In this document: in pieces, positions 3,585 through 7,590 of the stretch
How the letters are laid out: each line of letters opens with the position of its first letter
Position numbering within the stretch: the stretch's first letter is position 1
Assembly: GCA_012274175.1 (NCBI GenBank)
Contig: JAAOZZ010000419.1
Span: forward strand, 1-10,137
Source of the DNA: Betaproteobacteria bacterium
Lineage (GTDB): Bacteria > Pseudomonadota > Gammaproteobacteria > Burkholderiales > Usitatibacteraceae
Length of the DNA: 10,137 nucleotides
Direction of reading: 5' to 3'
Made by a program: the position numbers and the translations under genes
Notes under the pieces: model-generated
The model's database searches: none
What the model saw: the letters and a program-made list of their open reading frames with translations, nothing else
Told to the model about the DNA's origin: nothing

Positions 3585-3623
3585 TGGCCAAACGATGTGC
3601 GCAAGGCATATAATGTTCAACAT
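3585..3623 (+). promoter_or_regulatory. promoter and overlapping dyad before the XRE/AbiEii operon
   Basis: A perfect TATAAT at 3609..3614 has a weak TGGCCA at 3585..3590, 18 bp upstream. ATGTT-C-AACAT at 3613..3623 is a dyad overlapping the end of the -10 box, well placed for autorepression by the XRE protein encoded just downstream. With this promoter, transcription would begin near 3621, inside the ATG-started version of the ORF, so translation may really start at TTG 3652. Confidence 0.5.
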
Positions 3624-4146
3624 ATTTAACCTGCTCCGGAGATGCGCGGCTTTGCGGCTGCAGGAATTGGGTCATGCGATCAGGAGGGCAAGGCTCGCGC
3701 ACGGGCGGACGCAGGCCGACGTCGCACGCGCGGCGGGAATCTCGCGAACGACGATGAACCAGCTCGAAAATGGCCTCTTCCCCGACATCGGCGTAAGAAA
3801 GGCCCAGGCGATACTGGACCAGCTCGGTCTCGAATTGCACGTGCGCCCGGTGTACAGGCGCCGCGCGGACTATGTGCTGATGGCGCGTACGGTGGCGAAC
3901 GGCAGCTTCCGGGGAAAATTGTCCGAGGCGGAGCTCATGCGCATGCTGCTGACCGGCAAGATCGCCCCGCGGCACCGCCCTCACCTGCGCGCGCTGCTCG
4001 CGGAGGCGCCCGTCGCCGTGCTGAAGGGACTCGTGCACGAGGTCGGCAGGTGGGCGCAGCCGGGCCGGGTCGTGGAAAACGTGCGCAGGGTATCGGAGGC
4101 GCTGGGAACCGAGAGGAGGACCCGCACGTGGCTGAAGGACACATGA
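3613..4146 (+). CDS. XRE-family antitoxin/regulator paired with an AbiEii-type toxin
   Basis: The N-terminal half is an XRE helix-turn-helix: RTQADVARAAGISRTTMNQLENG at roughly residues 35-57, the recognition pattern of HipB-like antitoxins. The C-terminal half (from about 85, YVLMARTVANGSF) is a helical domain I know only from regulators sitting beside AbiEii-family nucleotidyltransferases. ATG 3613 is annotated, but TTG 3652 is a serious alternative: it follows GGAGA by about ten bases, lies downstream of the TATAAT promoter's predicted start, and would give an N-terminus (LRLQELGHAIRRARL) close to the usual antitoxin start. Its stop overlaps the toxin start in ATGA (4143..4146), indicating translational coupling. 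By analogy with AbiEi/AbiEii-type systems it should repress its own operon and counter the partner, though it is not an AbiEi homologue by its visible domains. Confidence 0.75.
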   Translation: MFNIFNLLRRCAALRLQELGHAIRRARLAHGRTQADVARAAGISRTTMNQLENGLFPDIGVRKAQAILDQLGLELHVRPVYRRRADYVLMARTVANGSFRGKLSEAELMRMLLTGKIAPRHRPHLRALLAEAPVAVLKGLVHEVGRWAQPGRVVENVRRVSEALGTERRTRTWLKDT

Positions 4147-6078: not shown

Positions 6079-6139
6079 GGTGGTGCGAGTTTACTGCATC
6101 CCGGCTTAACGCTATAGATCAAGGGCTTGCGGACTCGTC

Positions 6140-6189
6140 TAAGGTCACAAATTGTGACCTTAAAGCCGAGGGCGGCTCACGTGGTGAGC
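6140..6189. promoter_or_regulatory. palindrome site A with trailing hairpin
   Basis: Arms TAAGGTCACAA (6140..6150) and TTGTGACCTTA (6152..6162) are exact complements around one central base. Twelve bases later GCTCAC-GTG-GTGAGC (6175..6189) forms a second dyad. The pair repeats the architecture of the leader of the ORF6N gene at 7063. It lies between the divergent aroC and higA units and could act on either. Read from 6139 it would spell L-R-S-Q-I-V-T-L-K, an ORF6N-like peptide, although no ORF6N gene is present here. The remaining part of the 6079..6263 gap holds only the higA promoter. Confidence 0.75.
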
Positions 6190-6298: not shown

Positions 6299-6610
6299 AT
6301 GCACAGGCAAGAACCCATGATCAAGCGAATGCACAATCCAGCCCATCCCGGTGAAGTGCTCCGTGATACGGTCCTGGGAGCCGGGGGGCTGACTGTGAGC
6401 GAGTTCGCCCGAAGGCTTCGCGTCTCGCGCGTGGCACTTTCGCGGGTGGTGAACGGCCGCGCCGCCGTGAGTGCGGACATGGCGCTCAGGCTTGCGGCTG
6501 CGCTAGGCGGCAGCGCGGAGTCCTGGCTTCAGATGCAGGCCTCGCACGACCTTTGGAAGGCCTCCCGCAAGCCGCGGCCGAAGGTCGAACCGATCAAGTT
6601 GTCGGCGTAG
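6299..6610 (+). CDS. higA: orphan HigA antitoxin, XRE family
   Basis: A 103-aa HigA-type antitoxin. HNPAHPGEVLRDTVL (12-26) is the family hallmark; the helix-turn-helix follows at about 32-66 (VSEFARRLRVSRVALSRVVNGRAAVSADMALRLA), then SAESWLQMQASHDLW (72-86), all in the normal order. Length and domains are complete. In family members it binds and neutralises HigB and represses the operon. Here HigB is deleted, so it can act only as a DNA-binding protein or neutralise a related toxin elsewhere. ATG 6299 is preferred because AAGGGG (6285..6290) lies eight bases upstream; that sequence is part of the vestigial toxin's His-Lys-Gly codons, brought close by the deletion. ATG 6317 and ATG 6329 (at HNPAHPGE) are alternatives nearer to the usual family start. 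Confidence 0.9.
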   Translation: MHRQEPMIKRMHNPAHPGEVLRDTVLGAGGLTVSEFARRLRVSRVALSRVVNGRAAVSADMALRLAAALGGSAESWLQMQASHDLWKASRKPRPKVEPIKLSA

Positions 6611-6687
6611 CTGGTGAAAGGGGCATCGGCGATGTCCGTCCGCGGAACCGTTCGTGAGCGCGTTGGAAGGAGAATCCATCCCGCCAG

Positions 6688-6716
6688 TTGAGCGCCCCAA
6701 ATTGGCCATATTTACT
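6688..6716 (+). promoter_or_regulatory. candidate promoter of the Phd-like antitoxin
   Basis: TTGAGC at 6688..6693 and TTTACT at 6711..6716 are separated by 17 bp. The predicted start is base 6723, the A of the antitoxin ATG, and no ribosome binding site precedes that ATG, so a leaderless message is possible. The stretch from 6611 to 6687 shows nothing else that I can name. Confidence 0.35.
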
Positions 6717-6722
6717 TTCGAA

Positions 6723-6917
6723 ATGGACATTTCGGTCACCCAGTTCAAGCAACGCTGCCTGGAGCTCATCCGGCGCGTCGAAGCGACCGGCAAGCCCGTG
6801 ACGATCACGCGGCGCGGGAAAGCCGTCGCGCAGCTCGAGCCCTCGCCCACCGCAACCGCGCAGGGCCTGAAGCCCTGGGAGAGGTTGCGCGGGCGTGCGC
6901 GCTGGCTCGGATGGTGA
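6723..6917 (+). CDS. Phd/YefM-family antitoxin, C-terminally shortened and without toxin
   Basis: A 64-aa antitoxin of the Phd/YefM fold. MDISVTQFKQRCLELIRRVE (1-20) is the N-terminal beta-helix unit that dimerises and binds operator DNA; KPVTITRRGKAVAQLEP (24-40) is the following beta hairpin. The toxin-binding tail begins as PWERLRGRARWLGW and stops. Relatives that I recall continue another 15-25 residues, so the part that grips the toxin is probably clipped. The frame is open upstream to 6654, but ATG 6723 matches the family start. A toxin of the PIN/VapC or Doc type normally follows at once; none is present in the 145 bp before the next gene, in any frame. DNA binding may survive while neutralisation would not. 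Confidence 0.78.
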   Translation: MDISVTQFKQRCLELIRRVEATGKPVTITRRGKAVAQLEPSPTATAQGLKPWERLRGRARWLGW

Positions 6918-6934
6918 TTACCGGCGGACGAGCG

Positions 6935-6951
6935 TCGAAGCGGCGCTTCGA
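6935..6951. repeat. short inverted repeat after the Phd-like gene
   Basis: TCGAAGC at 6935..6941 and GCTTCGA at 6945..6951 form a 7-bp stem with a 3-base loop, 17 bp beyond the antitoxin stop. No T-run follows, so terminator function is uncertain. Confidence 0.4.
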
Positions 6952-6988
6952 AAGTTCGTGCCGCTCGATACGGTCCAATAGCTTGCTG

Positions 6989-7052
6989 ACTTGAGGTCAC
7001 AATCTGTGACCTCAAGTTGGCCGGGCTCATCCAGTGAGCCTGGCGTACGCCA
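6989..7052 (+). promoter_or_regulatory. palindrome site B and two further dyads in the ORF6N leader
   Basis: Three dyads stand in a row before the ORF6N start at 7063. The first has 13-bp perfect arms, ACTTGAGGTCACA (6989..7001) and TGTGACCTCAAGT (7005..7017), around a 3-base centre. The second is GGCTCA-TCCAG-TGAGCC (7024..7040). The third is the perfect palindrome TGGCGTACGCCA (7041..7052), ending ten bases before ATG. They could be operators, RNA hairpins limiting translation, or both; no ribosome binding site is visible between them and the start codon. Confidence 0.75.
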
Positions 7053-7062
7053 CGATGCCGGC

Positions 7063-7590
7063 ATGACCCGATCCGCCTTGGTTCCCCGTCCCATCGAGGA
7101 GAGAATCGTCTTCGTGCGAGGCGAAAAGGTGCTGCTCGACAGGGACCTAGCCGAGTTGTATGGCGTGGAAACGAAGGTGTTCAACCAGGCCGTGAAGCGC
7201 AACTCCGATCGCTTTCCGGAGGACTTCATGTTCCAACTCACCGCCGACGAGGTCGACAACTTGAGGTTCCAAATTGGCACCTCAAGTTCCGGCGCTGCTC
7301 CCGCCTCCAGCCACGGCGGGCGCCGCTACTTGCCCTACGTCTTCACCGAGGAGGGCGTGGCGATGCTGTCGAGCGTCCTCAACAGCAAGCGCGCGATCAT
7401 GGTGAACATCGAGATCATGCGAGCCTTCGTGCGGCTGCGACTGCTGCTCTCGGCGAATGCCGACCTCGCTCGACAGCTCGACGCCCTGGAGCGAAAGTAC
7501 GACGCCCAGTTCAAGGCGGTCTTCGATGCGATTCGCGAGCTGATGGCGCCGCCCGCCAAGCCGAAGCGGCCGATCGGGTTTGTGCCCTAA
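7063..7590 (+). CDS. ORF6N-domain (KilA-N-like) DNA-binding protein, intact
   Basis: A 175-aa protein with an N-terminal ORF6N domain: [20 protein letters not shown] (15-34), [18 protein letters not shown] (47-64), LRFQIGTSS (67-75), a variable Ser/Ala/Gly loop (76-84), then [20 protein letters not shown] (85-104). A helical part follows (107-126, AFVRLR), and a coiled coil at about 130-163 ([20 protein letters not shown]), ending in a basic tail. In phages this domain occurs in anti-repressor and DNA-binding proteins; in bacterial chromosomes such solitary genes have no assigned role. ATG 7063 gives the normal family start, but an in-frame TTG at 6991 inside site B would add 24 residues. It is the full-length counterpart of the clipped gene at 964..1344 and converges on the DUF3999 gene with six bases between the stops. 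Confidence 0.88.
7258..7288. repeat. site C: near-perfect 31-bp palindrome inside the ORF6N gene
   Basis: Around central base 7273, 14 of 15 base pairs match: AACTTGAGGT (7258..7267) against ACCTCAAGTT (7279..7288), one mismatch (7268/7278), then CCAA against TTGG. It encodes residues 66-76 ([11 protein letters not shown]), just before the variable loop, and its half-site is the one seen in sites A and B. Confidence 0.85.

Follow-up and report, generated by a model that had tools for sequence, protein, structure and literature searches.

A palindrome embedded in the coding sequence of an ORF6N-domain gene, at positions 7258-7288 of the 10,137-nucleotide stretch of Betaproteobacteria bacterium DNA analysed here (contig JAAOZZ010000419.1; hereafter the window), is a trait of the ORF6N family and recurs at one codon position in members from many phyla. 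The bases of its half-sites covary with residues of the predicted recognition helix and wing of the encoded protein, and it is therefore very probable that the ORF6N protein binds its own gene. The palindrome would then probably be a cognate site which serves as an autoregulatory operator and travels with the gene. A literature search for an ORF6N palindrome of this kind found no description of one. The relevant features of the window are as follows.

7063-7590, + strand: ORF6N-domain gene, 175 aa (Pfam PF10543, E 9.8e-36, 122.4 bits against a curated cut-off of 27.8)
7171-7200, + strand: code of the putative recognition helix (residues 37-46), of which residues 38, 39 and 42 covary with pairs 7, 5 and 4, counted from the palindrome centre
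7258-7288, + strand: in-gene palindrome centred on base 7273, with 14 of 15 pairs, coding for residues 66-75
7312-7329, + strand: wing-like stretch HGGRRY (residues 84-89), of which residues 86, 88 and 89 covary with the outer pairs 8 and 10
6989-7018, + strand: leader palindrome, its centre 60 bp ahead of the ATG at 7063
6137-6166, + strand: third copy of this palindrome class, located upstream of a HigA-type antitoxin gene (6299-6610)
964-1479, - strand: second ORF6N gene, a profile match
1143-1167, - strand: degenerate palindrome inside the second ORF6N gene, with 8 of 12 pairs

ORF6N is the sole Pfam match of the protein encoded at 7063-7590 and passes the profile cut-off; by profile the protein also falls in PADLOC PDC-S05 and in PHROG 4792 ('anti-repressor'). 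The in-gene palindrome begins 195 bp past the ATG and reads AACTTGAGGTTCCAA A TTGGCACCTCAAGTT, and the original prediction of a 31-bp dyad proved accurate: beyond the central three bases there are 14 arm positions with one mismatch, and the central A:T pairs as well. The peptide encoded is N66-L-R-F-Q-I-G-T-S-S75, so that the LRFQIGTSS segment is coding as described, but the common peptide of the family is LRSQxVTSS, of which LRFQIGTSS is a variant. A search with TNAGGTNNCAANNTGNNACCTNAA, allowing up to two mismatches, of the whole assembly (3.14 Mb, 80.56% complete) returned only the in-gene, leader and 6137-6166 palindromes, and the backwards control returned no match in the same 3.14 Mb. 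The copy at 6137-6166, which was absent from the original prediction, stands alone about 850 bp before the leader copy. Both ORF6N profile matches in the assembly lie within the window, and the inner G:C of the degenerate palindrome of the second gene agrees with Glu42 and Arg39 of its protein, the residues being assigned by eye. Toxin-antitoxin-like genes surround both ORF6N genes (97-691, 3595-4146 and 6299-6917) and include RelE-like (below its cut-off), HTH antitoxin-like, HigA family and Phd family types.

The dyad was followed across the family in two samples. The first consisted of the best 80 of at least 575 confirmed loci, from named genomes and many phyla, and was found by six peptide patterns (one of which, DEVDNLRF, overlaps the first codons of the palindrome) and no genome patterns. 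In these best 80 loci, 89 sites including that of the window map to the same codon position, 83 of them at an identical offset of 0; L075 has no mapped site, though a separate palindrome listing shows a 13-pair arm there, and the second copy in L044, which has an internal stop codon, was left unscored, giving 88 scored sites. Pairing was scored over the 12 pairs outside the three-base centre and compared with synonymous recoding at the gene's own codon usage, the observed score being the best of eight in-frame centres and the shuffles being scored at one centre. On this measure the 88 sites from the best 80 of at least 575 loci average 11.16 of 12 pairs, against 4.46 for the shuffles, and 86 of them differ from the codon shuffle at p < 0.01. 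This comparison had been set beforehand as the one on which the predicted dyad would stand or fall, and the homologues lie well above background. The second sample was drawn with the Pfam profile alone from 200 genomes, 45 of which have an ORF6N match, and 49 of the 68 matches outside the genome of the window were taken as loci. At least 10 of the 12 pairs are present in 46 of the 48 ORF6N frames among these 49 loci, the two exceptions being an N-terminal fragment, left by a broken gene, that ends short of the site, and one phage-type member.

Twelve further loci, taken from viral contigs, plasmids and one phage record and matching the window protein at 30 to 53% identity, have best gene palindromes of 9-12 pairs, with at least 10 in 11 of the 12. 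The phage-type members L146-L149 differ in that the usual form of the in-gene palindrome was not seen in them. In L147-L149, where the family profile is without reach, the best nearby palindromes have 9, 12 and 8 pairs, and the 12-pair palindrome of L148 lies outside the domain match and lacks the usual centre. A variant core, TCGAA-N3-TTCGA rather than TCRCA-N3-TGYGA, is found in L120, L125, L129 and L145, a more distant ORF6N group. Two palindromes of the class, with different outer arms, occur per ORF6N gene or its broken pieces in L016, L026, L095 and L195.

The pairing persists through amino acid changes and frame changes, which strongly supports selection on the DNA itself. Among the best 80 of at least 575 loci, a TCA codon for Ser69 goes with Val at residue 72 in 40 cases and with Gly and Leu in one each, and a TCG codon goes with Ala at residue 72 in 11; the combinations TCA69 with Ala72 and TCG69 with Val72 do not occur in this set. 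In the same best 80 loci the Ser74 codon is TCA in 63 of 67 cases, and at residue 71, which varies freely, 82 of 83 codons have T as their third base. The palindrome is maintained in another reading frame in L135, L140, L143 and L144, where the peptide is EVVTNCDHL or similar. The choice of serine codon further tracks a residue of the DNA-binding domain: among genes with TCN at position 69, the codon is TCA in 65 of the 66 with Gln42 and TCG in 29 of the 31 with Glu42.

This relation was extended by aligning 134 ORF6N proteins with their half-sites. Selection required a minimum of 10 pairs and 390 bases, and the pair counts of these genes are consequently not an estimate of frequency. The site picks of L065 and L098 are corrected in the residue-pair and column-ranking counts and misplaced in the z, tree, out-of-sample and extra-copy fits. 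An AlphaFold2 model of the window protein comprises an HTH and a long helix at its C-terminal side, with residues 37-46 forming the second HTH helix (mean pLDDT 81.1). With the palindrome's own codons set aside, residue 42 is the top covariate of pair 4 (z 43.6) and of pair 5, residue 38 covaries with pair 7 (z 22.1) and residues 84-89 covary with pairs 8 to 13. Residue 42 tracks pair 4 in 123 of the 134 genes: pair 4 is A:T with Gln42 (68/72), G:C with Glu42 (30/32), C:G with Arg42 (14/18) or Lys42 (9/10) and T:A with Leu42 (2/2). Pair 7 is G:C with Lys38 in all 71 cases, while pair 10 is G:C with Arg88 (94/98) and A:T with Lys88 (24/25). Glutamine side chains prefer A and those of arginine or lysine prefer G, and the residue-42 and related rules agree with these preferences.

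To check for linkage and shared ancestry, mutual information was used to rank 468 nucleotide columns. Outside the helix, residue 42 is most closely partnered by codon positions 72.2 and 69.3, which together make up pair 4. Both bases of pair 7 (68.3 and 73.2) rank highest in the same way for residue 38, and for residue 88 both bases of pair 10 (67.3 and 74.2) come next after codon 86. For the control residues 45, 41, 58 and 107, codons 66-75 are absent from the top eight of the 468 columns. On a tree that excluded the tested columns, same-branch changes number 26 for residue 42 and pair 4 (6.6 expected), 21 for residue 88 and pair 10 (2.8 expected) and 14 for residue 38 and pair 7 (6.4 expected); seven control pairs show 4 to 13 such changes against 3.6 to 7.6 expected. 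Rules trained on the first set (84) were also applied out of sample, with the commonest pair as the guess. The residue-42 rule is correct in 36 of 39 cases in the second set (guess 20) and in 9 of 10 (guess 8) among the viral, plasmid and phage loci; that for residues 86 and 88 is correct in 32 of 32 once seven unseen combinations are set aside (guess 25), and in 6 of 7 with three unseen ones set aside (guess 6), respectively. The residue-38 rule fails out of sample (22/38 in the second set, guess 28; 6 of 10 among the viral, plasmid and phage loci, guess 4). This covariation of helix and wing residues with the half-site lends strong support to the earlier suggestion that the palindrome is the site which the protein itself recognises.

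Palindromes of the same class also accompany some ORF6N genes as extra copies. In the first 81 sequences 89 lie in genes; outside them, 13 lie within 400 bp upstream, four downstream and five in the remaining 343 kb. The extra copies are closer to the site of their own gene than to those of others (27 pairs, permutation p 2.5e-4); an unusual half-site is common to the gene and the extra copy of L100 and, by eye, to those of L080, which lies outside the 27-pair test. The residue-42 rule is obeyed in 35 of 52 extra-copy halves against 23.7 when shuffled (p 0.008), and on both halves in only 17 of 26 extra sites. In the window, the leader and in-gene half-sites are alike, not equal as had been claimed: the outer part CTTGAGGT is common to both, but the inner bases are TTCCA and TGCCA in the gene and TCACA in the leader. 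The in-gene copy thus breaks the residue-42 rule for Q42, while the leader bases TCACA/TGTGA are those predicted by the recognition-helix residues V39 and Q42. The same holds wherever an in-gene rule-breaker has a leader copy, the leader obeying the rule at five of five sites in four genes (that of the window, L077 twice, L100 and L128). When the copy at 6137-6166 is compared by eye with the covariation rules, Q42 and K38 of the window protein fit and R88 does not, as A:T is present where R88 usually accompanies G:C. Upstream copies are present in a minority of genes (14/134), with 4 of the 11 rule-breakers and 10 of the 123 others possessing one (Fisher p 0.016); when downstream copies are included the counts are 4 of 11 and 18 of 123 (p 0.08). 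The more frequent upstream copies of the rule-breakers fit two sites sharing one role. The leader palindrome of the window is open in the frame of the gene (6991-7590) and its translation is the commonest ORF6N loop peptide; no ORF6N homology was found in its flanks (score -3.5), and no sigma-70-like promoter was found in 6880-7100.

We infer from these data a mechanism in which a symmetric dimer of the ORF6N protein would read each half-site with its second HTH helix, residue 38 contacting pair 7 and residues 39 and 42 contacting pairs 5 and 4, while the wing residues 86, 88 and 89 would read pairs 8 and 10. Protein bound about 200 bp inside the gene could act as a roadblock to the elongating RNA polymerase and hold down ORF6N synthesis wherever the gene lands. 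Some loci, that of the window included, may use the leader copy also or mainly, through leader repression. Looping between the two sites is unsupported, since no helical periodicity is seen in the distance between leader and in-gene copies (14 pairs; Rayleigh test, p 0.13 to 0.64). The internal autoregulatory operator originally proposed is the most likely, though inferred, use of the site; the window's in-gene copy has drifted from what the recognition helix predicts, and its leader copy fits the protein. An operator that moves with its gene suits the patchy distribution of the family among the 200 genomes.

Binding of a regulator inside its own gene has precedents. The controller protein C.Kpn2I, a restriction-modification regulator and likewise a small HTH protein, binds inside its own ORF and blocks the elongating RNA polymerase in the available part of the published account (PMC6237814), whereas the corresponding ORF6N site is predicted from the conserved dyad and covariation. 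C.Kpn2I is an XRE-type C-protein and the window protein belongs to ORF6N rather than to the XRE type. A further difference is that the ORF6N site is placed some 200 bp into its gene, within the region encoding the DNA-binding domain, and changes in step with the recognition helix across many phyla. LacI at the O3 operator is similarly reported to limit its own transcription by a roadblock (PMC3711431), but O3 also serves the lac operon and is not maintained within the code of a DNA-binding domain. The breadth of the ORF6N arrangement and its readable recognition code are unusual.

Autoregulation does not explain the sites that stand apart from ORF6N genes. A search of the 200 genomes with TTGARGTCRCANNNTGYGACYTCAA, allowing up to two mismatches, returned 51 places against three for the backwards control, of which 37 lie in ORF6N matches, four within 600 bp of one and 10 elsewhere; one of these 10 lies in a degenerate ORF6N fragment (L180), and five of the 36 site-bearing genomes are without an ORF6N match. 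On viral contigs there are 34 exact TTGARGTCRCANNNTGYGACYTCAA matches against none for the backwards control, nine in ORF6N genes, two near them and 23 elsewhere (more than 600 bp away within the stretch examined), although two of the 23 have an ORF6N gene about 0.7 kb away on the same stretch. Among the viral loci (L198-L231) the bare palindromes are mostly intergenic, with those in L205, L218 and L223 inside long frames that appear helicase-like by eye, and L214 has three in a row spanning about 110 bp. Several of the distant sites in L180-L189 lie beside genes that are toxin-antitoxin-like by eye (MazF-, PIN- and RelE-like), and L183 and L189 each carry a pair of sites separated by about 50 to 60 bp. 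Near-identical palindromes of another kind, GGGGACAGATT-N3-AATCTGTCCCC, occur at 2813 and 4063 of L025 and are possibly a REP-like repeat.

The main rival to autoregulation is self-immunity, since the window protein matches the candidate defence family PDC-S05 (E 7e-58, model PDLC04869). The ORF6N protein would in that case act against invading DNA, while the palindrome that its gene contains would switch it off or mark the element as self; bare palindromes would be decoys, or the phages carrying them targets of the protein. The bare viral sites favour this account, as does the apparent match of each ORF6N protein to its own site, but it is the less likely one, and the defence role of PDC-S05 is that of a candidate, with validation pending for most such candidates in the passages available. 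The BstA/aba system provides a precedent: the available portion of its description (PMC8585504) reports a prophage protein with a KilA-N-like domain, a short cognate DNA element in its own locus that confers self-immunity, and variants with matched elements, and the ORF6N gene likewise appears to hold a short cognate element. The aba element is, however, a 63-bp stretch over the start codon with terminal direct CCCGCC repeats and a role in immunity, rather than a palindrome 200 bp inside the gene, and the term 'palindrom' has no occurrence in the passages on aba in that source (PMC8585504). BstA also has 307 residues and a second domain, against the 175 residues of the window protein. Cis-regulation accounts at least equally well for the leader copies near the gene start and for the relaxation of in-gene copies where a leader copy exists. 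Both features speak more for autoregulation, and the bare viral copies more for self-immunity.

It is improbable that the palindrome is instead a mobile element or recombination signal that enters or exchanges ORF6N loops, with exchange of blocks producing the covariation. The tandem loop palindromes of L016 and L026 and the bare copies elsewhere are in keeping with such an origin, as is the downstream copy L191 (the same place as L117), which retains ORF6N-like flanking code. Of 86 flank translations, 18 exceed the 95th percentile of the control, against about four expected, and some extra copies may therefore be gene remnants, but in most extra copies the ORF6N flank score is not above the control maximum. 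The site moreover holds one codon position in nearly all sampled members rather than in a scattered subset, and residue 42, which is encoded more than 70 bases away, covaries only with specific base pairs. The recombination or gene-conversion role originally suggested gained no positive support. Dispersed palindromic elements are selfish repeats found in many unrelated genes. This class was rejected for the ORF6N palindrome, whose places in the 200 genomes are concentrated in ORF6N matches or within 600 bp of them (37 and 4 of 51) rather than spread over many unrelated genes.

An mRNA hairpin, acting for example in translational control, is very improbable. Folding into a stem that closes on a three-base loop is possible for any perfect palindrome, and the central three bases are indeed free, position 1 being paired in 51 of 87 sites in the best 80 of at least 575 loci; such a free centre is equally as expected for the spacer of a dimer site. 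Of 508 cells at silent positions, 484 are Watson-Crick, 14 A.C, five G.T and five other, and the mismatches in the best 80 of at least 575 loci comprise 27 A.C and nine G.T. A hairpin in the sense RNA would be expected to accept G.U pairs at such positions; their rarity there favours a site in double-stranded DNA, and an RNA stem does not predict covariation between HTH residues and base pairs. The proposal that the segment is under selection both as protein code and as a palindrome is strongly supported by these silent-position results together with the codon shuffle and the profile sample. Coincidence of the LRSQxVTSS peptide with codon usage, for which nothing speaks beyond the conservation of the peptide itself, is refuted by the codon-shuffled controls and has a negligible probability given the tracking of residue 42 by the Ser69 codon, the other reading frames and the non-coding leader copies.

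Regulators that bind their own gene have been known singly, as in C.Kpn2I and LacI O3; in ORF6N the arrangement encompasses a whole family, in many phyla and at one codon position. The site sits in the code of the family's own DNA-binding domain, the site and the residues that would read it change together, and the recognition code can be read from sequence alone (Gln42 A:T, Glu42 G:C, Arg42 or Lys42 C:G, Lys38 G:C, Arg88 G:C and Lys88 A:T), which makes ORF6N a clean case in which to study how a protein and its DNA site co-evolve within a single gene. It is conceivable, albeit unlikely, that the ORF6N (PDC-S05) genes are self-labelling defence genes, in which a DNA word written in the gene spares or silences the gene itself and incoming copies with the same word, the bare words of phages being decoys or targets. 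If so, the reading residues would drift along as the word drifts, and cognate pairs would stay private. PDC-S05 is reported to be abundant, with 3275 loci in rumen genomes in the available part of the source (PMC13356809), and the palindrome offers a first concrete molecular handle on this candidate defence family. The same arrangement occurs in distant bacteria and some phages, and may contribute to an understanding of this widespread candidate family of phage defence.
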